Assembly: GCA_021776735.1 (NCBI GenBank)
Contig: JAJFFH010000006.1
Span: 1 to 64,000 of the forward strand
DNA from: Planctomycetota bacterium
GTDB lineage: Bacteria; Planctomycetota; PLA2
Direction of reading: 5' to 3'
Length of the DNA stretch: 64,000 nt
Translations under genes and position numbers: made by a program
The notes under the pieces: generated by a model
What the model was told of the DNA's origin: nothing
The model's input: the letters and a program-made list of their open reading frames with translations, nothing else
Databases searched by the model: none
Shown: in pieces, positions 4,892-52,271 of the stretch
Numbering within the stretch: the first letter of the stretch is position 1
How the letters are laid out: every line of letters starts with the position of its first letter

Positions 4892-7800
4892 TCAGATGTC
4901 AGGCATCGCTCGCTCGCGGGCCGCACGCAGGTCCAGTTTGCCGGTGCCCAGCAGGGGGATTTCTTCGACCTTGATGAAGGCGTCTTCTCGGGGGAGATAG
5001 AGATTGGGCAGGCCGGCTTCGGCCATTGCGGTGAGGAGTTCCGGGATGTTCGCATCGGTGATGGTGTGCAGCACCGCCAGCCGTTCGCCCTTGCGCGCGT
5101 CGGGGATGCCTACGACGACAAAGCGGCGCTGCGGCGACGGGTCGTCCTTGGCATGCGCTTCGTGCAGGGCGTCTTCGACCGCGCCGTGCGAGACCATTTC
5201 GCCGCCGATCTTGGAGAAACGGCTCAAGCGGTCCGTGATCTTGATGTAGCCGTTTTCGTCCACGAGGGCGATGTCGCCCGTGATGTACCAGCCGTCGCGA
5301 AACGCCGCTGCGGTCAGGTCGGGGCGGTCGAGATAGCCGTGCATGACGTTGGGACCGCGCACCAGCAGGAGGCCCGGGGTGTTCGGCGGAAGTTCGTCGC
5401 CGGTGTCCGGATCGATGACGCGGACGGTCACGCCCGGCAGCGGCGGTCCCACGAATCCGCGCCGCGAACCGGGTTGATAGACGCCGGGCGCGCGATGGGG
5501 CGGGATGCTGGCGGCGATGACGGGAGCGCACTCGGTCGCGCCGTAACCTTCCAGCGGGCGAATACCGAACTGCTCCTCGAAGGCCTCGCACAGGGCGCCG
5601 GGCAGCTTCTCCGCGCCCGCGAGCACAAGCCGCAGCGAACCGAACCGATCCGGCGGGATGCGGCGCAGGTAGAGCTGCAAGAACGTCGGCGTGGCGAGCA
5701 GCCACGTGAGCCGGTGCTTTTCGACCAGGCGGCCGATCGCGGGTGCATCGACGGGGTTTACGTGAAACACGATCGGCATGCCGCGCACCAGCGCGAACCA
5801 GAGCGACAGCGTGCCGAACGAGTGAAACAGCGGCAGGATGCCGAGCAGCCGGTCGTCCGGCTCGGGACGAAAGACCTGCGCGACGGCTTCGATGTTGCTG
5901 TCGAGATTGAAGTGGGTGAGCGGCACGCCCTTGGGCTCGCCCGTGCTCCCGCTGCTGAACACGATTGTCGCGACCGAGTCGGGCCCGGCTGTCCGGCGCG
6001 CCCCGCAATAGCGTTCCAGCAACCGCTTGGGCGCAAACAGCGCGACCAGCGCGGCGCCGAGTTTCTGCCGCCAGGAAAACGAGAGATCTTCGAGGAACAT
6101 CGCCGTCCCGCCTTCGCGCTCCGCGCTTCGGCGCGGGCAGGCCCGTTTGCTGTCCAGCTCGAGGTTCGCTCCTTCCAGAAACCTGCGGCTGGTGAGGATC
6201 GTTTCGAGTCCGGCCTGACGTGCGGCGGAATCCATGGCGGCGCGTCCCGCGATGTAGTTGAGGTTGACGCTCTCGTTGCCGCACAGTGCCGCGGCGAGGT
6301 TGGCGGCGGCGCCCGCGACGGACGGCGGGAGGAGGATGCCGCGCGGGCGCACGCGTCGCGCAAGCAGAATCGCCATCACGAGCAGGCCGAGTCGAGAACA
6401 GGTCGTGGTGGCGTCGGCGGCGGCGAGGCGCCACGGCGCACGGCGGACGCGCTTGACAAACGAGCGGTGCAGCGACGGGCGGGTGCTCTTGCGCGCGAGC
6501 CAGGCTTCTTGGCCGAGTTCTTCGATGCGTCGGCGGAGTTCCGCGACGGGAGTGTTGGGGGGGGCGGGGGCGCCGAACGAGACGGTGATCGGGTACGGGA
6601 TCGACTCCGGAAGCTTGCGCAGGAAGCGGCCGCGCGAGAACGAGAACAGCGAACCCCAGACGCGGTCGAGGTGGACGGGGACGATGACCGCGCGGCGGCC
6701 CTTCGCGATGCGTTCGAGTCCGCGCCGGAACGGATTGGTCTGGCCCGTGCGCGTGATTTGCCCTTCCGGGAAGACGCAGACGACTTCGCCCGCGTCGAGG
6801 TGTTCACCGGCGTCGCGCAGCGCGCGCAGGATTTCCTTCGTGCCGCCGGTGCTCGAGACCGGGATCGCGCCGACCATGCGCGCGAGAGGCCGGATCCACC
6901 ACCGGCGATACTGTTCCTCCTCGATGAGAAAGCGGATCGGCCGGTCAATTGCGGCCATCAGGAACAGGCCATCCACGAACGACATATGGTTGGGCGCGAG
7001 CAGCACGCCGCCCGTTTCGGGCACGTTGACGCGGCCGCGCACATTGAGGCGGTAGATCGTGTGCGTGTACAGGAACACGCACAGGCGCAAGAACGCTTCG
7101 GGAAGAAGCGTGAGCGCCCAGACGGTGCCGAGGAGCGTGGCGAGGCCGGCGCCGACAAAGATCGCGCGCGACGAGTAGTCGAACAGCGCCATGCCGCCGC
7201 CCGCGAGGGCGCCAAGCAGTGTTCCGGTGAAGACGAAGACGTTCGACAGCGCGATGACCGACCCGCGTCGGTCCGCGGGTGCCTTCCACTGGATCAGCGC
7301 GTCGAGCGGCACGACTAAAAAACCGCTGGCGACGCCCGCGAGTCCGAGCAGGATGAGGGTGAACGCGAGGCCGGGCGCGAACGCGCCGAGAGCGAGCACC
7401 GAACCGGCAAGCCCGAGTGCGCCGAGCGGAATAAGCCCGACCTCGACCTTGCCCGCGGACAGGCGTCCGGCGATGAGGCTGCCGAGTCCGACGCCGACGC
7501 CGTACACGCCGAGCGGCGCGCCTGCCCACCGTTCGCCGAGGCGCAGCACCTGTTCGGAATAGACGAGAAGGTTTTGGCCGAGCAGGCTCGCGATCGCCCA
7601 GAAGAACGTCGAGCCGAGGACGGCGAGCCACAGCGTCCGGTCGGCGCGCAGCGTGCGCCATGCGGCGCGCACGGTCGCGACTACCGGCTGCGGCGCGGCG
7701 GCGGGCGGCGTTTCTTCAATGCGCCGCGCGAACCCGAGACCGATCAGCGCCAGCAGCGCGAGCACGGCGGCGGCGGGTGCCGGACCGACTGCGGTCAGCA

Positions 7801-8284
7801 GCGGCGGCGCCAGCGCGGTGCCCAGGATGATCGCCAAAAACGTCCAGAAACCGAGCGCGCCGTTGGCCGAAGACAGGCGCGCATGCGGCACGATTTCCGG
7901 CAGGATGCCGTACTTCGCCGGACCGAACACGGCACTCTGCACGCCCATCAGCGCCAGCACGACGAGCGGACCTGCGTTCGCGCCCACGGCGAGCAAAAGA
8001 GCCCCGCACCCCATCAAAACAACTTCGGCGATCTTCGTACCGACGATCACGGACCGCTTGGAGAACCGGTCGGCCCACGCGCCCGCGGGCAGCGAAAACA
8101 GCGCTAGCGGCAGCGTGAACGCGACCAGCGCGGCCATCTTCTGGAACTGCGACGCGGCCTCGGCGCCGTCCCCGGTCGGCAGCAGGCGCGCCCACAAGAC
8201 GATCACGAACAACTTCCAGGCGTTGTCGTTGAACGCCCCAAAGAACTGGGCCGCCAGCAGGTTGCGCAGGGATCGGGTCGTCAC
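4892..8284 (-). CDS. MFS transporter / PlsC acyltransferase / acyl-ACP synthetase fusion (LplT-Aas type)
   Basis: One chain of 1130 residues. Residues 1-400 are a 12-helix MFS transporter of the LplT kind (lysophospholipid flipping). Residues about 415-600 are a PlsC acyltransferase with the catalytic NHMSFVD (HX4D) near residue 432 and FPEGQITRTG. From about 620 to the end is an AMP-forming ligase with SSGSTGEPKG near residue 780, EGYGATECAP, and the late ITGDIALVDENGYIKITDR and lysine motifs. In E. coli LplT and Aas are two proteins that import lyso-phosphatidylethanolamine and re-acylate it at the inner membrane, so the fusion would do uptake and repair in one polypeptide. It is convergent with the SUMF1-type gene and divergent from the TPR cluster. 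Confidence 0.9.
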   Translation of the reverse strand: MTTRSLRNLLAAQFFGAFNDNAWKLFVIVLWARLLPTGDGAEAASQFQKMAALVAFTLPLALFSLPAGAWADRFSKRSVIVGTKIAEVVLMGCGALLLAVGANAGPLVVLALMGVQSAVFGPAKYGILPEIVPHARLSSANGALGFWTFLAIILGTALAPPLLTAVGPAPAAAVLALLALIGLGFARRIEETPPAAAPQPVVATVRAAWRTLRADRTLWLAVLGSTFFWAIASLLGQNLLVYSEQVLRLGERWAGAPLGVYGVGVGLGSLIAGRLSAGKVEVGLIPLGALGLAGSVLALGAFAPGLAFTLILLGLAGVASGFLVVPLDALIQWKAPADRRGSVIALSNVFVFTGTLLGALAGGGMALFDYSSRAIFVGAGLATLLGTVWALTLLPEAFLRLCVFLYTHTIYRLNVRGRVNVPETGGVLLAPNHMSFVDGLFLMAAIDRPIRFLIEEEQYRRWWIRPLARMVGAIPVSSTGGTKEILRALRDAGEHLDAGEVVCVFPEGQITRTGQTNPFRRGLERIAKGRRAVIVPVHLDRVWGSLFSFSRGRFLRKLPESIPYPITVSFGAPAPPNTPVAELRRRIEELGQEAWLARKSTRPSLHRSFVKRVRRAPWRLAAADATTTCSRLGLLVMAILLARRVRPRGILLPPSVAGAAANLAAALCGNESVNLNYIAGRAAMDSAARQAGLETILTSRRFLEGANLELDSKRACPRRSAEREGGTAMFLEDLSFSWRQKLGAALVALFAPKRLLERYCGARRTAGPDSVATIVFSSGSTGEPKGVPLTHFNLDSNIEAVAQVFRPEPDDRLLGILPLFHSFGTLSLWFALVRGMPIVFHVNPVDAPAIGRLVEKHRLTWLLATPTFLQLYLRRIPPDRFGSLRLVLAGAEKLPGALCEAFEEQFGIRPLEGYGATECAPVIAASIPPHRAPGVYQPGSRRGFVGPPLPGVTVRVIDPDTGDELPPNTPGLLLVRGPNVMHGYLDRPDLTAAAFRDGWYITGDIALVDENGYIKITDRLSRFSKIGGEMVSHGAVEDALHEAHAKDDPSPQRRFVVVGIPDARKGERLAVLHTITDANIPELLTAMAEAGLPNLYLPREDAFIKVEEIPLLGTGKLDLRAARERAMPDI
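6097..6110 (-). repeat. interspersed motif copy 4, possibly split
   Basis: The core is exact, encoding TAMF on the minus strand. About 34 bases away on its 5' side (6128-6154) lies CAGCAAACGG, the usual upstream flank, as if an insert separated flank and core. Confidence 0.7.
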
Positions 8285-8350
8285 AAAAAGAGGCTACCGC
8301 CAAAAAAATCGACCGCCCACTCACTTCCCCGAATCGACACAATAGGCCAC
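8285..8350. promoter_or_regulatory. divergent intergenic region
   Basis: These 66 bases separate the start of the LplT-Aas fusion (minus) from the first TPR paralogue (plus), so promoters for both should lie here or overlap the starts. The segment includes a run of six A's. No confident -35/-10 pair was identified. Confidence 0.4.
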
Positions 8351-10189
8351 ATGAATCGAAGAGGAGGCAGCAAACGGACGGCGATGTTTCTGGCGGCACT
8401 CGTGGCCGGAGCGATGCTGGTTTCCCGCCTGCAAGCGGACGAGAACGTCGCGGCCGTCGAGAAGGAGGTGCGCGCGTTTCTCAAAGAGGCGGAGAAGGGC
8501 GAACTTGCCGATGTGCTCGATCTTGATGCGATCGCGCGCACGATCGAGAAGCTGGCCGGTCGGGATGTCGCTCCCTACGCGGTGGTCCGTGCGGCGCTCG
8601 AACAAAAGCTCGCGCGAGCCGAGGTGCTTCTTGTTCTCAAGGGGCTGAAGACACGACGCGTCGAGGTGATGGGTACCGACGATGCCATCGTGATCGCTGA
8701 CGTCCGCGTTCCTTTCTTGGACGCGTGGGTGCGCCAGCGACTTGCCGTGCACAAGACTCCGCGCGGCTGGCGCATACAGGACTTCGGAGAACTCGCCCTT
8801 GGCCTCAGCCTTGTCGAGTTCATGGAAACAGCCCTTCACGCCGTGGCCAGGGGCGAGAACGGAGTCTTAGCCACACTCGCGGTGATCAAGGAGCTGATTC
8901 ACGGATTCGATCAGCTCGATGCGGAAGAAGCATCGGTTCGGCTCAAGTCCGTTGCCCACCACGCGCTGCCGCGCCGGCTCGATGCGATTCGGCACGGCTT
9001 TACTTCGTTGGTTCAGGTCGGCGCTGACGAACTCGACGATGCACTGGCGAGCGCGGATCGTGCGCTCGCGCTCGTGCCGGATCTTCCGATTGCCCTTCAG
9101 GCAAAGGCCATGGCGCTGGTCGAGCTCGGTCGGGCCGGCGAAGCGTTGCCGATCCTGGCTCGGCACCGAAAGACGTTTGGCGACAGCGCGGATGCTCGCG
9201 AGACCGAAGTGAGCGCCCTGATCCAGCTCAAGCGCCACGCGGAGGCGAAGACCGTCTGCCTGGCCGGGCTGGCCGAGGAGACGCGTCCTTGGTTGGTTGC
9301 TCGGTATGCGAAGCTTCTGCCGACCGAGTCCAAGGCGCTCATTCTTCCGTACTTCGACAAGCTGGGACCGCCGGGGGATGCCTTGATCGAGTGCGGCGAG
9401 GAGTTCGGCGAGCTCGATGAATGGCAGGCCCTGGAACTCGTTTGTGCGCATGCCCGCAAGACGATTCCGGACCATCCGGATGTCGCCTACTACGACGCTC
9501 TCGCGAAGTGGGCCACCGGGCGTGCGACGGAGGCGGCAAAACTGGTCTATCCCGCGATCGAACGTGCCCCGGCGGACGAACGCGACGCGTTCGTGGAGCT
9601 GTACCTCGACGTCATGCACGAGCTCGAAAAGGGGCTCTCCGGCTACCGGCGGCTCGCGGACCGGGATCGCGGATTCGGGTTCGCGTGTTTGGCCCGGACC
9701 CTGTACGACGACGACAAGTACGACGATCTCAAGAAACTCGTGAATAGGCGCCGCGGAGAGACCAAGGATCTTGACCTTGTCCTGATCTGGGAAGCCGAAA
9801 TCCTCTGGCGCAACGACAAGAATGCGGAGCTGATTCCCTTCCTGCGAAGACACGCCGCTGCGATGGCGCGAGTCGAGGGGGAGGAGAGCTGGATGCCCAA
9901 CGACCGGCTTGTCCGCGCCCTGATCAGATTGAAGAAGCTGGACGAGGCTGTGCGGGAGGCGAAGCGCATCGCCGCGGCGGGTGACGAAGCGTACTACCTC
10001 GTCATGGCGTACGCCGCGTCCGGCCGTACAGCGGAGGCCATCCACGCATTCCGTCGTGCCGTAGCAGCCCACCAGCCGGACGACCTGTACACGGACGAGG
10101 ACATGGGCCCGCTCCTCCGCAAGCCGGCATACAAGGAGCTGCACAAGAAGTACCCGCCCCCGTCGATCAAGGACGACGAGAAGAAGTAA
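8351..10189 (+). CDS. exported TPR-like protein, paralogue 1
   Basis: This protein of 612 residues starts with a basic segment and a hydrophobic helix (about residues 12-29), probably a signal peptide ending near LQADE. Residues about 30-165 form a mixed alpha/beta domain of unknown type. From about 210 onward helix-turn-helix repeats of TPR character follow (for example ALASADRALALVPDLPIALQ then AKAMALVELGRAGEALPIL). The C-terminal signature reads GPLLRKPAYKELHKKYPPP and recurs in both following genes. Function is unknown. It is the first of three tandem copies, five bases from the next. The N-terminal KRTAMF is encoded by the interspersed motif. Confidence 0.8.
   Translation: MNRRGGSKRTAMFLAALVAGAMLVSRLQADENVAAVEKEVRAFLKEAEKGELADVLDLDAIARTIEKLAGRDVAPYAVVRAALEQKLARAEVLLVLKGLKTRRVEVMGTDDAIVIADVRVPFLDAWVRQRLAVHKTPRGWRIQDFGELALGLSLVEFMETALHAVARGENGVLATLAVIKELIHGFDQLDAEEASVRLKSVAHHALPRRLDAIRHGFTSLVQVGADELDDALASADRALALVPDLPIALQAKAMALVELGRAGEALPILARHRKTFGDSADARETEVSALIQLKRHAEAKTVCLAGLAEETRPWLVARYAKLLPTESKALILPYFDKLGPPGDALIECGEEFGELDEWQALELVCAHARKTIPDHPDVAYYDALAKWATGRATEAAKLVYPAIERAPADERDAFVELYLDVMHELEKGLSGYRRLADRDRGFGFACLARTLYDDDKYDDLKKLVNRRRGETKDLDLVLIWEAEILWRNDKNAELIPFLRRHAAAMARVEGEESWMPNDRLVRALIRLKKLDEAVREAKRIAAAGDEAYYLVMAYAASGRTAEAIHAFRRAVAAHQPDDLYTDEDMGPLLRKPAYKELHKKYPPPSIKDDEKK
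8374..8387 (+). repeat. interspersed motif copy 5
   Basis: Perfect core with the full flanks CAGCAA and TTC, at codons 9-13 of TPR paralogue 1. The motif ATG (8384) is in frame and could itself serve as a start. Confidence 0.85.
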
Positions 10190-10194
10190 TTGCC

Positions 10195-12054
10195 ATGGAC
10201 CGAAGACGAGGCAGCAAACCGACGGCGATGTTTCTCGTGGCGCTGGCGTTGTTGGCCGGTGCGTGCGAAAAGGCGAAACCCGGGAAGACGAGGTCCGCCC
10301 GTGTCGCCGGCTCGCGCCATGTGACCGAGGACGTGCAGACGTTCTTGACGCGCGCGACCGATCTCGAATTCGAAGACATCCTGGACACCAAGGCCGTCGA
10401 AGAGGCCGCCCGGAGGAGAGCCGGGCTGAGCCTGGGTGCCACGCTAGACGCCTGGGAGTTCATTGAAAGCCAGCGGCCGCGCTGGATCATGCACTATCCA
10501 CGCTTGAAAGGAATGCGTGTTCGTCGCATCCAGCGCAAGGGAACGGATCGGGCCGTGGCTGTCGTCGATGTCTGGACGTGCAAGGGAGATCGGTGGCGGT
10601 ACCGCTTGGAGCTGGCGTGGACGACATTCAGGTGGCGGGTGTCGGATTTTGGGGCACTTACCAACGGGATGAGTGCCGTGGAGACGGTAGCCGGGCTGCT
10701 TCGTGCGGCGGCGGCCGAAAGGGACGGAGTCGTTCGCGCCATCGTCGTACTCGGCGAGCTGCTCCACGCCTACCCCGGCCTCGACAAGTCCGAGCAGATG
10801 CTGAGTGCCATGGCGAATCAGTCGCTGCCGCGTCGCTTCAACGCGCAGCGTCACGCCATAGCGGCTTTGATACGGTTCGGCAAGGGGAACAGTGCGGCCG
10901 CGCTCGTCGCGGCGGACCGGGCCTTGGCCCTTGATCCGGGATTGCCTTTGGCGCTCCTGGCGAAGGCTTCCATCCTGCTGGACCTGCAACGACCCGCCGA
11001 GGTGCTTCCTGTTGTTGCGGCGCATCGCGCACGGTTCGGTGACGGTGCCGATGCGCGCGAGGTCGAGGTCGAGGCTCTGCTTGCGCTGAACCGGCCGGAA
11101 GAGGCCCTGAACGCGTGCCGGGCGGGGCTGGCCGACGAGAACATGCCGTGGCTCATCGCGCAGTTGGCGATGCTGCTGGGTCCGGACAAGAAGGACACGA
11201 TCCTGCCGCATCTCGAGAAGCTTGATCCGTCGTCCGGCGCGTTTCGCGAGTTGGGCGAATTGCTCGCGGACTACGAGGAGTGGGACGCGCTGGAGATGGC
11301 GTGTCTCCACCTTCGGAAGAAGGTTCCGAATCACCCGCGCGTTGCCTACTACGAGGCGCTTGCGAAGCTGTATACCACTCGGCCGGAGGAGGCAGAAAAA
11401 ACCGCGTTTCTCGCTATCACAGACGCTTCGGGGACCGATCGGCGAGCGCTCGTGGGCCTCTACATCGATGCGACGTATCGCGAAGGGCACGGTCTTGCCG
11501 GATACGCGAAACTCGCGGATCGGGATCGAGCGCACGGCTTCGCCTATGCGGCGCAGGCTTTGTACGCGGCCGACGAGTATGTCCAGCTCCGGGAACTTGT
11601 GAACAAGCGACGCACGGAGACTAGGAATCTCGACCTCGTACTCCTTTGGGAGACGGAACTCCTGTGGCACGCGGGCGGCAAGGACGCCGAGGTCGTGGCC
11701 TTTGTCCGCAAACATGCCGATCAGCTCAAGCGCGTGAAGGATGAGGCCCGCTGGATCCCCGGCGACAGACTCATCCGATCCCTGGTTCGCCTGAACAAAC
11801 TCGACGAGGCCGAATGGGAAGCGCGGCGCTTCTATGGCACCCACAAGGACCCCTACCTCATCATCCTGGTCTGCGCTTCCGCCGGCAAGACCGGCGACGC
11901 GATCCACGGATTCCACAAGGCGCTCGCCGGCGGCTACGCGCCCGCGGACCTCTACAACGACATCGACGTGGGCCCGCTCCTCCGCAGGCCGGCGTACAAG
12001 GATCTGCACAAGAAGTATCCGCCGCCGCCGATTGAGGACGACGGGAAGAAGTAA
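10195..12054 (+). CDS. exported TPR-like protein, paralogue 2 (possible lipoprotein)
   Basis: This 619-residue protein is homologous along its length to its two neighbours and ends in GPLLRRPAYKDLHKKYPPP. The N terminus has a basic start (MDRRRGSKPTAM), a hydrophobic helix and then LLAGACEK. The Cys fits a loose lipobox, so this copy may be lipid-anchored while paralogues 1 and 3 have no such Cys. The TPR part again spans about residues 210-600. The five-base spacing from paralogue 1 suggests one transcript. Confidence 0.8.
   Translation: MDRRRGSKPTAMFLVALALLAGACEKAKPGKTRSARVAGSRHVTEDVQTFLTRATDLEFEDILDTKAVEEAARRRAGLSLGATLDAWEFIESQRPRWIMHYPRLKGMRVRRIQRKGTDRAVAVVDVWTCKGDRWRYRLELAWTTFRWRVSDFGALTNGMSAVETVAGLLRAAAAERDGVVRAIVVLGELLHAYPGLDKSEQMLSAMANQSLPRRFNAQRHAIAALIRFGKGNSAAALVAADRALALDPGLPLALLAKASILLDLQRPAEVLPVVAAHRARFGDGADAREVEVEALLALNRPEEALNACRAGLADENMPWLIAQLAMLLGPDKKDTILPHLEKLDPSSGAFRELGELLADYEEWDALEMACLHLRKKVPNHPRVAYYEALAKLYTTRPEEAEKTAFLAITDASGTDRRALVGLYIDATYREGHGLAGYAKLADRDRAHGFAYAAQALYAADEYVQLRELVNKRRTETRNLDLVLLWETELLWHAGGKDAEVVAFVRKHADQLKRVKDEARWIPGDRLIRSLVRLNKLDEAEWEARRFYGTHKDPYLIILVCASAGKTGDAIHGFHKALAGGYAPADLYNDIDVGPLLRRPAYKDLHKKYPPPPIEDDGKK
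10218..10231 (+). repeat. interspersed motif copy 6
   Basis: One change in the core (ACCGACGGCGATGT), same position in the signal peptide as in paralogue 1, with flanks GCAGCAA and TTC preserved. Confidence 0.75.
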
Positions 12055-12093
12055 CCCTGCGCGACAAGGACAAGGTCTGACACAATAGGAATC

Positions 12094-13935
12094 ATGCATC
12101 GGAGAGGACGAAGAGGACGTAGCACCCGGCTTGCCGTCCTCGCGATCCTGGCGACTTTGATCGGGTCGTGGCCGGCGATGGCCGAAGACAAGGACACGGC
12201 GGCTACCTCGGAGGTGCTCGCGTTTCTCGAGCGTGCCTCGCGCGGATCCTTGGCCGACGCCGTCGATGCTACGGCGATTGCGGAATCCGTTGCGCGGAGA
12301 GCCGGCGTCAAGCGCGCCGATGTGCAACCTCTCGTCGCGTTGATTCGGACGGCCCTGACTCGGGAGACCGATCTGGATCTCGATGGGTTTCGGATCCGAG
12401 CCGTGCGCCGCATTGGCGCCGGCTTGTGTGAAGTCGTGGGCGACAGCGGCACAGGCGACGACTGGGTCCGCTTTCGTCTCACGGTCCGTAGGAAGGCCGG
12501 CCGTTGGCGCATCGTGGAGTACCGTGACATGTCGGGCTCCATCGGGCTGCTCGACGCATTGGTGCTCGGTGTCACTGCGGCGCGGCAAGGCGATCGCGAT
12601 GTGGTTCGGGCCGTCTCCGCGATGATGCGGGTTCGCGACGCCGATGTCGACGCGGAGTCCAAGGAGCTGATCGCGATCATGGAAGAGGTCGCCGAGGTCA
12701 AGCTCCCGGTGCGTTTCGATGCCGCTCGCCACATCGTTGTCGCGATGCTCAAGAACGAGGACGACCCGAAGGGTGCCCTGGCGAGTGCCAACCGTGCGCT
12801 CGAACTGCAACCCGGCCTCCCCTACGCGCTGCTCATCAAGGCGTCGGTCCTGACCGATCTCGAACGCCCGGCCGAAGCCCTGCCGCTTTGCGCCCAGCAC
12901 CGCAAGGCGATTGGTGACAATGCCGCCGCGCGTGCGTTCGAGGTAGACGCGCTAGGTGCGCTCGATCGACTCGAGGAGGCCAAGGCCGCCTGCGTCGCCG
13001 GGCTGGACGAGGAGGTGCGTCCGGACCTCGTCGCACGCTATGCGACTCTCCTCCCCGAGGATGGGAAAGCGGGCATCGTTCCGTTTCTCGTCGAACTCGG
13101 ACCGCCGGGCGATGTTCTGGGCGAGCTGTGTGATGCGCTTACCGAGCGAGATCAGTGGCGTGCGGTCGAGATCGTATGCGCGCGTGCGCGTCTCAGGATT
13201 CCCGACCATTCCGACGTGGCCTACTACGACGCGCTTGCCAAGCTGGGGACGGACCGGGCAGAGGTGGCGGCGCGGATCGTGTATCCGGCCATCGCCACCG
13301 CACCTGAGGACGGGCGCCCGTTGTTTGTGGAACTCTATCTCGACGCGATGCTGTTGCAGGACAAGGGGCTCGCCGCGTATGGCCGCCTGGCGGCGCAGGA
13401 TCGCCAAGCCGGATTCGCGTATCTGGCGAGAGAGCTGTGGAATGAGGATCGGTACGACGAATTGCGCACTCTGGCGCGGCGCCATCGGACGGAAACGAGA
13501 GAGTTGGGACTCATCCTCGTCTGGGAGACCGAGCTTCTCTGGAACGACGACAAGATGGCCGAACTCGTTGCTTTCGTCCGCAAGCATAGGGTCGCCCTGG
13601 CCCGCGTCGAGGGCGACGACGCCTGGATGCCGAACGATCGACTGCTGCGTGCGTTGCTGGAGCTGAAGCGAATCGGAGAGGCCGTCCGGGAGGCGGAGCG
13701 AATTGCGGCCGCGGAAGAGGATTCGTTTTATCTGGTGATGGTGTACGCCGCGGCGGGGCGGACGGAAGACGCGATACGTTGTTTTCGCGAGGCGATCGCC
13801 AACAACGGCCATGACCCGGAAGATCTGTTCGAGGACTCCGTTATCGGCCCGCTCCTCCGCAAGCCGGCATTCAAGGAACTGCACAAGAAGTACCCGCCGC
13901 CGCCGATCAAGTCCGACGAAGAAGAGGACGGGTAG
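12094..13935 (+). CDS. exported TPR-like protein, paralogue 3
   Basis: This 613-residue protein has a signal peptide of about 30 residues ending in SWPAMAED. Mid and C-terminal parts align with paralogues 1 and 2, including NRALELQPGLPYALLIKAS and the end GPLLRKPAFKELHKKYPPP with an acidic tail. Unlike its two upstream relatives its N-terminal coding region lacks the interspersed motif, which shows that the motif is not required for the signal peptide. It lies 39 bases after paralogue 2. Function is unknown; a periplasmic scaffold is a reasonable guess from the TPR fold. Confidence 0.8.
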   Translation: MHRRGRRGRSTRLAVLAILATLIGSWPAMAEDKDTAATSEVLAFLERASRGSLADAVDATAIAESVARRAGVKRADVQPLVALIRTALTRETDLDLDGFRIRAVRRIGAGLCEVVGDSGTGDDWVRFRLTVRRKAGRWRIVEYRDMSGSIGLLDALVLGVTAARQGDRDVVRAVSAMMRVRDADVDAESKELIAIMEEVAEVKLPVRFDAARHIVVAMLKNEDDPKGALASANRALELQPGLPYALLIKASVLTDLERPAEALPLCAQHRKAIGDNAAARAFEVDALGALDRLEEAKAACVAGLDEEVRPDLVARYATLLPEDGKAGIVPFLVELGPPGDVLGELCDALTERDQWRAVEIVCARARLRIPDHSDVAYYDALAKLGTDRAEVAARIVYPAIATAPEDGRPLFVELYLDAMLLQDKGLAAYGRLAAQDRQAGFAYLARELWNEDRYDELRTLARRHRTETRELGLILVWETELLWNDDKMAELVAFVRKHRVALARVEGDDAWMPNDRLLRALLELKRIGEAVREAERIAAAEEDSFYLVMVYAAAGRTEDAIRCFREAIANNGHDPEDLFEDSVIGPLLRKPAFKELHKKYPPPPIKSDEEEDG

Positions 13936-16194: not shown

Positions 16195-19100
16195 TCAGTG
16201 CACTTGGTTCCACGCGGTCATGATGGCCTGGTGCAGCGGGACGTTGCGGACCATCGACTCTCGATCGCTTTTTGGGGCGTGCTCGCGCAGGAACTCGAGC
16301 AGGCGGTGTGCTTCGCGGAGATGTACATCGCCGTCCGTTCGTTGCCACATCCGGTAGCGCGCCTCCATCTCCACTTCGTGATCGATGTGGCCCTGGTGCT
16401 TCTCGAGAACAGCGGCGGCGGCGGCGGCGTGCGTTTTTCCGCCGGGCAGCCGTGCGCGTTCTGTGGTGGCGAACACCGTGACGTTGGGGGCATCGAGTTC
16501 GTGGGCGAGCGCCAGTGCTTCGTCGAGGTGGCTTGTCGCATTGTCAGGGTTTCCGCCGGTGGCCTCGATTTGGCCCAGGACGACGAGTGCGATCGCCAGG
16601 TTGTGCTTGGCTCCCAGCTCGCGCTGGATCGCGACGCTCTGGGCGATGGCCTCGCGCGCCCGATCCGGACGCCCATCGATCTTGGCGAGCTGGGCGATGC
16701 GGGCCAGGACCTCGCCCTCCTGGCGCCGACTTCCGATGTTGCGGGCGCCTGCCAGGCACTCGTCAAGCTGAGTGCGCGCGTCTTCCAGACGGCCGAGGCG
16801 CACGAGGTCGGTGGCCAGCTTGCCGATGGCTCTGGATTCTGCTTTCTTGTCCCCGATCTCGCGCGTGAGGGCCCTGGTTTTCTGGAAGTAGCCGCGCGCC
16901 TCTTCGAGACGTCCGGCGTCCGAGAGAATCGAGCCGAGGTTTCCCGTCGCGTAGGCCGCGGCGCGCCGGTTTCCGATCTCGCGGGCCAGCGCGAGTGTTT
17001 GCTCGTACTGCGCGCGCGCCTCCGCGAGTCGTCCCGTGTTTTGGAAGACGATGCCCAGGTTGCCGGTGGCGTTGAGTTCACTGAATCGATCGCCGGTCTC
17101 GCGCGCCAGCGCAAGAGCGTTCTCGAAGTGCTCCCGTGCCTCCTTGCCGCGCCCCAGATTCCACGCCACGAGGCCTACGCTGATGGTCGCCTCGGTCTCC
17201 CACTTCTTGTCGCCACGCTCGCGTGCCATGGCAAGGCTCGCCCTGAACTGCGTCTGGGCCTCGTCGTAGCGGCCGAGATTGCGAAGCACGTGCGCCACGT
17301 TGTCCGCGGCTTTTCCCCGGAGCCTGACGTCGTCCGCGTCATGCGCGAGTGCGAGCGCTTCTTCATGCCACTTCAGCGCGGCAGTCAGATCCGACGTGGC
17401 TCGAGCGTGCATGCCGAGCGCGATCCGGACTCTGGCGCGCACCCCCGACTCCCCGCACTCGTCCGCCAGATGCCGCGCCTCATCCAGGGCGGCCCGCACG
17501 GTCTCGTGCTCGCCGCGCACGCGATGCAGCCGAGCCTTTCGGAGCAAGACATCCGCGCGCGCCGTGCTCTGCAGCAGGTCGGGCGTTTCGAGCGCCCGCG
17601 TCGATAGCTCGAACGCTTCCTCGTAGCGCGACGTCCGTTCGAGCGTGTCCAGCGCCGGGTCGAGATGGTCCCCGGCGTCGCGCGGCTCATTCCCGCGCAG
17701 GTAGTGTGACGCGAGGAACACCGCGTCTTCGCTCCCGCTTGCAGCGTCGCCGCGCGCGGCGTAGGCGTCGGCGATCAGCGTGTGGTACTCGGCGCGAAGA
17801 TCCGGCGGAAGATCCTGATAGAGGACCTCCTGAATCTGGTTCTGGTCGAATCGCGTGCTGCCTGCCTCGCCGTGGACGAGGCCGCGGCTGCGTTCGATCT
17901 CGGCAAGATGCTGGAGGATCCGAACCCGCTTTTGTTCCAGCACGGCGACGATGAGGGCGGGGTCGAACACCATTCCGATCACGGCGCCGACGTCCAGAAT
18001 CCTGCGCTGTTCATCCGGCAGTCCGCGCAGCCGGCCGTCAATCAGGTCACGGACCGCGGACGGCACGTCGATCTCTTCGATGAGTCCGGTCTGGACGTAT
18101 CTGCCGTCGGGTTCGCGCCGGAGAAACTTGTCCTCGGCCAGCCCCCGGATCATTTCGAACACGAAGAGAGGCACGCCGTCCGACTTCCTGGCGATCTTTG
18201 CGCCCAGCGTCTCGGCGAGCGTCTCGTTCTTGAAGGCGTCTTCGAGAAGCTCGAACACTTCGCGCGCGCCGAGACGATCCGCGAGGACTCGCTGGAAGTG
18301 GTGCAGTTGGCTGAACTCTTCGAGCCGCATGCCGGGTCGGGCCGTAAACAGGAGCAGGACGGACTCGCTCTCCGCGGCGCGCGCGAGTGCAAGAGCGAGA
18401 TCGCGGCTCTCCGCGGACGCGTGGTTCAGGTCCTCGACAATCCAGATCAGCGGCTCTTGTTCCGCCAACGCGCGCATGAGCTGCACGCAGGTGGCGGCGA
18501 GTGCGTCCCGCGGCAGCGGGTCGGCTCCGGTGGGCGGCCCCTCGTGCTTGAGGAGGGACGCGAACGCCGTCACAAGGGAGGGGGCGAGGGACAAGTGAGG
18601 CGCGAGCCGGCGGGCCAGATCCCGTTCGCCGAACTTCCCCACGATCGCGTCCGAGAGTGCGCCGAATCCACCCGACGGGGCGTAGGAGCCGTACAGCACG
18701 TTTCCGCTTGCGCCGTCCACTTCGCGCAGGAACGCATCGACGAGCCTTGTCTTGCCGATCCCGGGCTCGCCTTCGACAAGGATGGCGTTCCCCTCGCCGG
18801 CCTGTGCACGATCCCATGCGGCACGCAGCGCGCGCAGCTCCTTGGCGCGACCGTGGAGTCGAGTCTCCCGTCTCACGCGTATTTGTGGGACGTACGCCCT
18901 GGTCTCGTGTTCCTGCGACGCCTGCTCCGTCCACCACCGCGACGGTTCGCCCTGTTCGAGCACCGCGCGCAGCGCGTCGGCCGACTCGAACCGGTCCCCG
19001 GGGTTTTTCTCGAGCAGGCATGCGACCAGCGCCGAGAAAAAGGGCGTGGTGTCGCCGATGTCGGCAAGGCGCGGTGGAACAAACTCCGCATGCGCCCGGA

Positions 19101-19809
19101 TGAGCGCAGCCACGTCATTGCGAGGAAACGGGGCTTCGTGCGTGGCGAGTTCGTGCAGCATCACGCCGAGCGAGTAGAGGTCGACCGAGGTGCCGACTTC
19201 GTCGGACAAGAAGTGCTCGGGCGCCGCGTACAGTAGCGATCCCGCGAAGCAGCCCACCGTGGTGATCGCTACGGCCGCGTCCTGCACCTTCGCGACGCCG
19301 AGGTCCATGACGCGGATGTCATGGTCATCCGTGATCAGGATGTTTTCCGGCTTGATGTCCCGGTGCACGATGCCGTCGGCGTGGATGGCTGCAAGGCCGG
19401 CCGCGGCCTGGAGCGCGATCTCGCGCAACAACGTCTCCGGAATCGTGCCCAGTTCGTCGTGGAGCTCGCGCAGGCTCTTGCCCTCGACATACTCCATGAC
19501 GAGGAAGTGGTAGTGCTGCCCCTTGTGGACGATGGCGTCGGCGTCGTACGTGCGAACCACGTTGGCGTGCCGCACGCGCTTGCCCAATTCCGCTTCCTGC
19601 ACGAACCGCTTGAAGAAGCCCGGCGATTCCAAGAGCCGTTGATGGATTACCTTGAGCGCGACCTTCTCACCAGGTTTGAGGCCACCGTCGAGGCCGAAGC
19701 CGCCGGCCGTCACCTCCGCGAGGTAGACGCTCCCCATGCCACCCGAGCCCAGCTCGCCGTGGATCTCGTAGCCGCCAAGCTTCTCGCCGACCAGCGCGTC
19801 GTCAGGCAA
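16195..19809 (-). CDS. Ser/Thr protein kinase with AAA ATPase and TPR region
   Basis: This protein of 1204 residues has a Hanks-type kinase domain at residues 12-280: GELGSGGMGSVY, Lys in VALKVIH (about 53), HRDIKPENIL (149) and DLG in place of DFG (169). GRAKELRALRAAW and VEGEPGIGKTR (about 347) then mark a STAND/AAA module of the MalT/adenylate-cyclase-associated type. From about 690 to the end there are many TPRs with repeated GNLG...ARGYF patterns. No membrane helix is evident, so it is probably cytoplasmic. It likely phosphorylates partners in response to a ligand or protein sensed by the TPRs; the signal is unknown. The start is TTG at 19809, because a TAG lies four codons upstream and no ATG or GTG fits before the kinase motifs. 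Confidence 0.9.
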   Translation of the reverse strand: MPDDALVGEKLGGYEIHGELGSGGMGSVYLAEVTAGGFGLDGGLKPGEKVALKVIHQRLLESPGFFKRFVQEAELGKRVRHANVVRTYDADAIVHKGQHYHFLVMEYVEGKSLRELHDELGTIPETLLREIALQAAAGLAAIHADGIVHRDIKPENILITDDHDIRVMDLGVAKVQDAAVAITTVGCFAGSLLYAAPEHFLSDEVGTSVDLYSLGVMLHELATHEAPFPRNDVAALIRAHAEFVPPRLADIGDTTPFFSALVACLLEKNPGDRFESADALRAVLEQGEPSRWWTEQASQEHETRAYVPQIRVRRETRLHGRAKELRALRAAWDRAQAGEGNAILVEGEPGIGKTRLVDAFLREVDGASGNVLYGSYAPSGGFGALSDAIVGKFGERDLARRLAPHLSLAPSLVTAFASLLKHEGPPTGADPLPRDALAATCVQLMRALAEQEPLIWIVEDLNHASAESRDLALALARAAESESVLLLFTARPGMRLEEFSQLHHFQRVLADRLGAREVFELLEDAFKNETLAETLGAKIARKSDGVPLFVFEMIRGLAEDKFLRREPDGRYVQTGLIEEIDVPSAVRDLIDGRLRGLPDEQRRILDVGAVIGMVFDPALIVAVLEQKRVRILQHLAEIERSRGLVHGEAGSTRFDQNQIQEVLYQDLPPDLRAEYHTLIADAYAARGDAASGSEDAVFLASHYLRGNEPRDAGDHLDPALDTLERTSRYEEAFELSTRALETPDLLQSTARADVLLRKARLHRVRGEHETVRAALDEARHLADECGESGVRARVRIALGMHARATSDLTAALKWHEEALALAHDADDVRLRGKAADNVAHVLRNLGRYDEAQTQFRASLAMARERGDKKWETEATISVGLVAWNLGRGKEAREHFENALALARETGDRFSELNATGNLGIVFQNTGRLAEARAQYEQTLALAREIGNRRAAAYATGNLGSILSDAGRLEEARGYFQKTRALTREIGDKKAESRAIGKLATDLVRLGRLEDARTQLDECLAGARNIGSRRQEGEVLARIAQLAKIDGRPDRAREAIAQSVAIQRELGAKHNLAIALVVLGQIEATGGNPDNATSHLDEALALAHELDAPNVTVFATTERARLPGGKTHAAAAAAVLEKHQGHIDHEVEMEARYRMWQRTDGDVHLREAHRLLEFLREHAPKSDRESMVRNVPLHQAIMTAWNQVH
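16325..16338 (-). repeat. interspersed motif copy 10
   Basis: Perfect 14-mer near the 3' end of the kinase gene. Confidence 0.85.
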
Positions 19810-51975: not shown

Positions 51976-52271
51976 GCACCCGGCATCGCGGGGTGTCCGC
52001 GCGCCCCCCCCGCCTTGCGAGAAACATCGCCGTCCGTGTGCTCCCGTCGTGATTGCCCCGACCTCCACAACGCTCCGCGCCAGCCCCCGCGACCGACCCC
52101 CCCCCGGTCTCACCAGATCCTTCTGGCGACCCATACCCCGCATATGGTTGTGATTTTCTTCGTTACAAGACCATCCGTACGCGGCTTGCCCCGGCCCCAA
52201 GAGCGGCCGGTGGTTCGCCAGCGAGTGCGTTCGATCCACCCGACGCGTCCGACCGGGGGTACGATCCCAAC
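51976..52271. other. intergenic, C-rich, one motif copy
   Basis: The stretch has several runs of eight to nine C's (near 52006 and 52090) and motif copy 26. An open frame continues upstream from the C25-like gene to 52053 but shows no signal peptide there, so it is treated as non-coding. Confidence 0.5.
52024..52037 (-). repeat. interspersed motif copy 26
   Basis: Perfect 14-mer, intergenic, with GAGAA on one side and GTGCTC on the other, 49 bases after the stop of prepilin-like paralogue 3. Confidence 0.85.

Follow-up and report, generated by a model that had tools for sequence, protein, structure and literature searches.

A tandem trio of planctomycete genes for putatively exported proteins with a predicted MlaC-like domain on a TPR arm

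The window analyzed here, a stretch of 64,000 nucleotides from a Planctomycetota bacterium (assembly GCA_021776735.1, contig JAJFFH010000006.1, positions 1 to 64,000), carries three large genes in a row, named A, B and C (Table 1), and raises the question of what their products are and what they might do. The original prediction described three tandem paralogues of 612-619 residues which would be exported, would contain tetratricopeptide repeats (TPRs) and would begin with an unknown domain. The open reading frames (ORFs) are as described: the genes lie head to tail on the same strand with gaps of 5 bp (A-B) and 39 bp (B-C), and the proteins are 46% (A and B), 49% (A and C) and 42% (B and C) identical, a level which, being maintained over the full length, means that the resemblance is not due to chance. 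The 5.97 Mb genome contains exactly three copies of the family, which are A, B and C. While coding and paralogy can be read directly from these data, the fold of the N-terminal domain (the head) and the TPR nature of the remainder are established at the level of models and profiles, and these place the head closest to the MlaC/Ttg2D proteins.

The head of A was modelled alone, with a mean predicted local distance difference test score (pLDDT) of 93.7 and a predicted template modelling score of 0.86, and consists of helices (2-21, 26-29, 32-43, 50-64) followed by four strands (74-80, 85-94, 99-110, 113-121) and a last helix (128-140). In a Foldseek search of the PDB with this model ranks 1 to 11 were all phospholipid-binding proteins of the MlaC/Ttg2D type (E 7.5e-6 to 7.4e-3; TMq 0.44-0.58). 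VIA-align superimposed ten MlaC-family entries with Z scores of 8.3-10.7, aligning 124-129 of the 142 residues at 3.1-4.2 Å; the best other NTF2 fold reached a Z score of 8.5 over 106 residues. For comparison at the sequence level a head alignment (A5) was built from 19 of the 21 family ORFs, leaving out L054, which lies at a contig end and has no N-terminal domain, and L119, the start of which was called too late (74 residues), and was compared with a profile of 30 planctomycete MlaC sequences (29 of the 30 loci L154-L183, L158 having been lost, plus the sequence from genome G013). The two profiles matched over 128 columns with a probability of 83.8% (P 7.9e-6, score 41.8), while the controls stayed far lower: at most 13.0 for 40 column-shuffled versions, at most 12.5 for five slices of the TPR part and 10.9 for the reversed MlaC profile. 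The match did not depend on the window, as A5 without the window sequences gave P 2.9e-6 and the three relatives from the same order alone gave 9.1e-6. In a Pfam scan of A5 MlaC was the family matching most members (3 of 19, best E 0.0056).

Other comparisons were weaker. A search of PDB sequences with the A5 head profile found Ttg2D (6hsy, E 0.023) and 11hy, 4fcz, 2qgu, 7vr6, 6gki, 5uwa and 8oj4 (E 0.28-1.6), and these eight MlaC entries sit among 30 matches together with ribosomal S20 and de novo designs, three of which rank better; this match is suggestive only. One planctomycete MlaC sequence matched the head profile weakly (P 0.016); in the same comparison four unrelated proteins of the window gave P 0.07-0.62, and five shuffled sequences P 0.15-0.76. 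A whole-protein sequence search of the PDB gave nothing significant, A, B and C had no MlaC match in Pfam at E ≤ 1, the head not being recognised by Pfam, and no family locus had a PF05494 (MlaC) match among the matches listed in the phylum search. Taken by predicted fold and profile the head is thus a distant relative of MlaC which stays below the Pfam MlaC cut-off (26 bits) and so is not a member of the Pfam family. The N-terminal domain, rightly predicted to be common to the trio, is therefore no longer of unknown type: at the level of prediction it is an NTF2-type domain closest to MlaC/Ttg2D.

The head is followed by the repeats. TPR_14 and TPR_19 are over the Pfam cut-off in A, whereas B and C show only sub-threshold TPR matches, and the TPR content of the trio is weak but real. 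The AlphaFold2 (AF2) model of full-length A, made from an eight-sequence alignment (A3), has a mean pLDDT of 88.1 and shows successive helices between residues 154 and 600; the structures it resembles are TPR superhelices of a generic kind (OGT, LGN, PilF, MamA). Pfam finds no catalytic domain in the three proteins. The proteins end in a tail, GPLLR[KR]PA[YF]K[ED]LHKKYPPP, which is common to A, B and C except for one S/P difference and had been predicted to be an invariant signature. The region 550-597, with its GPLLRKPAYKELHKKY tail, resembles the NCBIfam model NF047558 (C 20.8 bits, A 11.9, B without a listed match; cut-off 32), and similar ends occur in distant relatives (DEDAGGRLRGEAFTELHKQFPPP in L113 and DEDVGETLRGGPYKQLHATYPPP in L114). 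Because it lies in a TPR end-of-group region and has versions in distant homologues, the tail is not a special tag.

Export is suggested by the N-termini, which all have an Arg/Lys-rich stretch followed by a hydrophobic segment. By eye, A and C look like ordinary substrates of signal peptidase I and are probably soluble in the periplasm. B is probably a lipoprotein, as had been suspected of the middle gene: judged by eye against the lipobox rule, Cys24 after LLAGA forms an allowed but suboptimal lipobox. The original prediction was thus right in calling the proteins exported (as judged by eye), paralogous and TPR-like. It should be noted that the motif block at the beginning of A and B includes an ATG usable as a start, which the gene caller picked. 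Since this ATG is missing from C, and the three proteins have M-x-R-R in common, the upstream starts of A and B are preferred, if not proven. The word GACACAATAGG stands just ahead of both A and C (two matches against 0.23 expected; 2 of 100 shuffles reach two). It is a possible promoter -10 region, perhaps of leaderless transcripts, and its presence before A and before C hints at separate promoters.

Table 1. Positions in the window of the three genes, their predicted domains and the DNA motifs.
Feature	Position	Strand	Basis
Gene A, MlaC-like + TPR protein, putatively exported, 612 aa	8351..10189	+	ORF; paralogy; AF2 model
Gene A, MlaC-like (NTF2-type) domain, residues 27-168	8429..8854	+	domain model; Foldseek, VIA; profile-profile match
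Gene A, TPR solenoid (helices 208-600) with TPR end-of-group-like end	8972..10150	+	Pfam TPR; NF047558 below cut-off; model
Gene B, paralogue, probable lipoprotein (Cys24), 619 aa	10195..12054	+	ORF; paralogy; lipobox by eye
Gene B, MlaC-like domain	10264..10719	+	alignment A5
Gene C, paralogue, 613 aa, putative signal peptide without KRTAM motif	12094..13935	+	ORF; paralogy
Gene C, MlaC-like domain	12169..12591	+	alignment A5
GACACAATAGG, 4 bases 5' of gene A ATG	8336..8346	+	word search
GACACAATAGG, 4 bases 5' of gene C ATG	12079..12089	+	word search
DNA motif read as KRTAMF in gene A signal peptide	8366..8391	+	motif search
Copy of the same DNA motif in gene B, encoding KPTAMF	10210..10235	+	motif search
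Same DNA motif, 2 mismatches	52020-52045	-	motif search

How lipids move across the planctomycete envelope is poorly known. Our tentative proposal is that A, B and C are envelope proteins whose MlaC-like head binds a lipid or another hydrophobic ligand and is carried on a TPR arm. Signal peptides would bring the proteins to the envelope, A and C as soluble periplasmic proteins and B as a lipoprotein; each would consist of the MlaC-like NTF2-type head, the TPR superhelix and a TPR capping segment. The arm would dock on a partner protein in the envelope, and the head would bind a hydrophobic ligand, most plausibly a phospholipid, or hold a membrane-derived substrate for the partner; we infer both ligand binding and docking. 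This lipid reading is based on the fold and profile match, on the occurrence of MlaD/MCE in a genome without PF05494, and on a neighbour reminiscent of lipid repair. The genome has two MlaD/MCE matches, on contigs C20 and C21, and no PF05494 match. Divergent from gene A, at 4892-8284 on the minus strand, lies a gene whose 1130-aa product joins an MFS, an acyltransferase and an AMP-binding domain, a set known as the LplT-Aas phospholipid-repair combination; it points to lipids in a suggestive way, as an isolated clue. Canonical MlaC (PF05494) was found in 44 of the 392 genomes sampled from the phylum, over cut-off in 43 (among others G013 C110, locus L143, and G114 C29), and both G013 and G114 also carry the MlaC-like TPR family. 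A survey (PMC10665443) describes MlaABC as sparse, with MlaA, MlaB and MlaC mostly in Proteobacteria. A more far-reaching idea, which we rate as a long shot, would have MlaC-like heads on TPR arms serve MCE (MlaD) systems by tethered lipid transfer in planctomycetes without free MlaC, the tandem trio (soluble, lipoprotein, soluble) splitting the route between inner and outer membrane.

The distribution of the family was addressed by searching other genomes. No relative was found by protein search in four other genomes of the same family. In the order, a clear relative was present in 5 of the 16 other genomes, one of which, G015, has only a C-terminal piece at a contig end. At least 20 of the 392 phylum genomes pass E 1e-15, a lower bound, since the search scored three candidates per genome and cannot count copies. 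G344 was dropped because its match covers TPR positions 235-425 only, in a locus (L120) with several large TPR ORFs, leaving 19 genomes, our own included. Copies were counted by a six-frame search of the fetched loci with flanks of up to 10 kb on each side: each of the 19 relative loci, which come from 18 genomes, contained a single family ORF (L120 uncounted), and none had a tandem copy. In G279 two family genes were found, each on a contig of its own, one gene beginning at a contig end, and the relative in L111 is just 447 aa by gene call; the gene caller was tuned to high G+C and found no genes in L112 and L120. Among the genomes searched the tandem triplet is thus seen only in our own, and the pattern elsewhere is, as far as the fetched loci go, one gene per locus without a tandem arrangement, which goes part of the way towards refuting the proposed complex of three related subunits. 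A contig scan for close relatives with the trio returned 76 pattern matches and no relative, and one with A6 gave matches in three contigs of Planctomycetota metagenome-assembled genomes. Gene neighbourhood was rejected as a clue to function: one ORF is common to three loci (L117, L118 and L119), sharing is otherwise pairwise, and the annotated neighbours are a mixture including thiolase, ArgRS, DAHP synthase and NUDIX proteins. Adjoining the family gene of G013, at L053:6655-7416 on the minus strand, is an ORF that resembles the LppM domain below threshold (24.3 bits against a cut-off of 27). In our own window a beta-lactamase-type serine hydrolase lies downstream of the trio, and an ORF of 1204 aa at 16195-19809 on the minus strand combines Ser/Thr kinase, AAA_16 and TPR domains.

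Several observations weigh against a lipid-binding MlaC relative. The root-mean-square deviations of the Foldseek matches to MlaC/Ttg2D are large (6.6-12.0 Å), and only two of the ten MlaC entries, 8dte and 11if, exceed the Z value of the best other NTF2 fold by more than 1, the other eight differing from it by less; NTF2 folds are, moreover, often plain binding or dimerisation modules. The window trio alone matches the MlaC profile weakly (P 0.012). No member of A5 goes beyond E 0.0056 for Pfam MlaC, L121 scores 13.4 bits (the only score printed) against the cut-off of 26, and a search of 276 called proteins with the MlaC hidden Markov model found no family member significant (best E 0.68). 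As for context, the window contig (C46) has no MlaD match and thus no mlaFED linkage, and no cluster of neighbours is widely common to the relative loci. A partnership with MlaD by co-occurrence is not supported either, MlaD being present in two of the six genomes of the order with the family (our own and G010) versus 5 of the 11 without it.

The codons also bear on the history of the trio. The three genes group in a single clade (support 1.000), within which the order of duplication has a support of just 0.222, and their identity is lowest in the head and greater in the TPR part and the tail. At sites of the tail with the same residue the codon is also the same in 16/20, 17/20 and 14/17 cases for the three pairs, against overall fractions of 0.45, 0.45 and 0.41. 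In every pair the best 15-site codon window falls at the tail, where 13-14 of the 15 codons agree, against 10 of 15 at best in other parts of the genes, with permutation P values of 0.011, 0.0135 and 0.025 from three tests that are not independent, and the tracts of codon excess lie at about 10105-10165 (A), 11970-12030 (B) and 13845-13910 (C). This suggests that short-tract gene conversion, or selection on the DNA, contributes to the near-invariant tail, so that the supposed signature in part reflects identity at the DNA level. The codons of the motif block in the head region are likewise identical between A and B. Outside the shared tracts fourfold sites are 38-40% identical and the copies 42-49% identical; with both so low, the duplications are old and the copies have long been kept. 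The three would thus be old local duplicates of a planctomycete family which otherwise has one gene per locus, and would probably have diverged in partner or location.

An alternative which we rate as just as likely as our own proposal is that the head no longer binds a ligand and serves to cap the N-terminus. The protein would then be purely a TPR scaffold or adaptor of the periplasm, recruiting an enzyme such as a protease, or a peptidoglycan or secretion partner. About 400 of the 612 residues are TPR solenoid, and the structures most like the full-length model are TPR scaffolds of a generic kind, including the CtpA-LbcA adaptor complex of the periplasm (8sxf, rank 29, TMq 0.34). In the head just two positions, the W and D of WRxxD, exceed 90% conservation, where more might be expected of a dedicated site, and the neighbours of the relatives include no common lipid genes; on the other hand, the MlaC-type layout of the head has been kept colinear over about 125 residues across a divergent family.

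Two further explanations concern the trio as such. A single hetero-oligomeric complex of the three proteins in the periplasm, as the original prediction proposed, appears unlikely to us: the tandem arrangement on one strand with such short gaps, and the retention of three diverged copies, would fit it, but the relatives were found as one gene per locus, the two genes of G279 are on different contigs, and the GACACAATAGG words hint at separate promoters. Without tandem relatives or a widely common neighbour cluster an obligate three-subunit complex is not supported, and we regard an oligomer specific to this locus as a bare possibility. Still more improbable is a redundant amplification without division of labour, the copies being partly homogenised by conversion; synonymous codons are indeed common to all pairs in the tail and to A and B in the head block, but the low identity elsewhere speaks of old, long-kept copies. 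Our proposal thus remains an envelope protein with a putative ligand-binding head. The combination of an MlaC-like head and a TPR arm is one of known parts, and the family is real; we found no description of an MlaC-TPR fusion or of an NTF2-like/TPR planctomycete protein in the open-licence literature. The family is a concrete and testable candidate for envelope lipid transport, and its head, which goes unrecognised by Pfam, now has a predicted fold.

The motif at the beginning of A and B warrants particular attention. That KRTAM (A) and KPTAM (B) are motif-encoded, C being without them, was correctly predicted: A and B carry the same 26-base block, with no mismatch to GGCAGCAAACSGACGGCGATGTTTCT, which had no match in 100 shuffles. 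Allowing one mismatch, ACGGCGATGTTTCT occurs 247 times in the genome against once for the reversed control, and the core GGACGGCGATG occurs 1,628 times against four for its reverse, with 4-27 copies in each of 16 order relatives. What A and B carry in their signal-peptide codons is thus a copy of a lineage-specific iterated DNA motif, and KRTAM does not mark a protein family. Within a sample of 484 kb, GACGGCGATG (n = 149) was found between called genes at 0.98/kb (48), in the first 90 bases of genes at 0.39/kb (12) and in the rest at 0.22/kb (89). The sample used our own simple gene calls, in which A and B both begin within the motif; start errors of this kind inflate the intergenic class and deflate the first-90 class, so that the division between these two is approximate. 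Two reading frames are favoured, giving Asp-Gly-Asp and, on the reverse strand, Ile-Ala-Val; the reverse-strand motif yields signal-peptide-like starts with RNIAVL. In G001, a relative from the same family, 400 kb of sequence contained no 11-base word of this type. With its genome-wide excess, not common to the order relatives, the GGACGGCGATG motif resembles a DNA uptake sequence and is a candidate for one. The open-licence literature gave nothing on a DNA uptake sequence or overrepresented uptake signal in Planctomycetes. This motif may matter more than the proteins that led to it, as a possible uptake sequence in a planctomycete.

Among known systems, the uptake sequences of Neisseria and Pasteurellaceae resemble the GGACGGCGATG motif in copy number, preferred reading frames and a weak excess at gene starts, features described in PMC2346458; according to the same paper, start annotation is led astray by an uptake motif that includes an ATG. 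The present case differs in its planctomycete host and unrelated motif, and inverted pairs are rare (2 in the 484 kb sample). The tail region matches TPR_END_plus (NF047558) below cut-off and is extended in the trio by a proline-rich end. LbcA, the partner of CtpA (PDB 8sxf), is likewise an envelope protein with a long TPR solenoid, its resemblance to the trio being of the generic TPR kind; we know of no LbcA with an MlaC-like head. MlaC/Ttg2D itself (PF05494), the periplasmic phospholipid carrier of the Mla system, differs in that its solved chains have 172-190 residues versus about 140 in the head, which is fused to an arm of about 400 residues, stays below the Pfam cut-off and has no MlaD match on its contig. 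It has a signal peptide, as the trio appears to have, and it has the fold type predicted for the head over about 125 residues, the 128-column profile match and, at the end of the sheet as in the head, a W-[RK]-x-x-[DN] segment.

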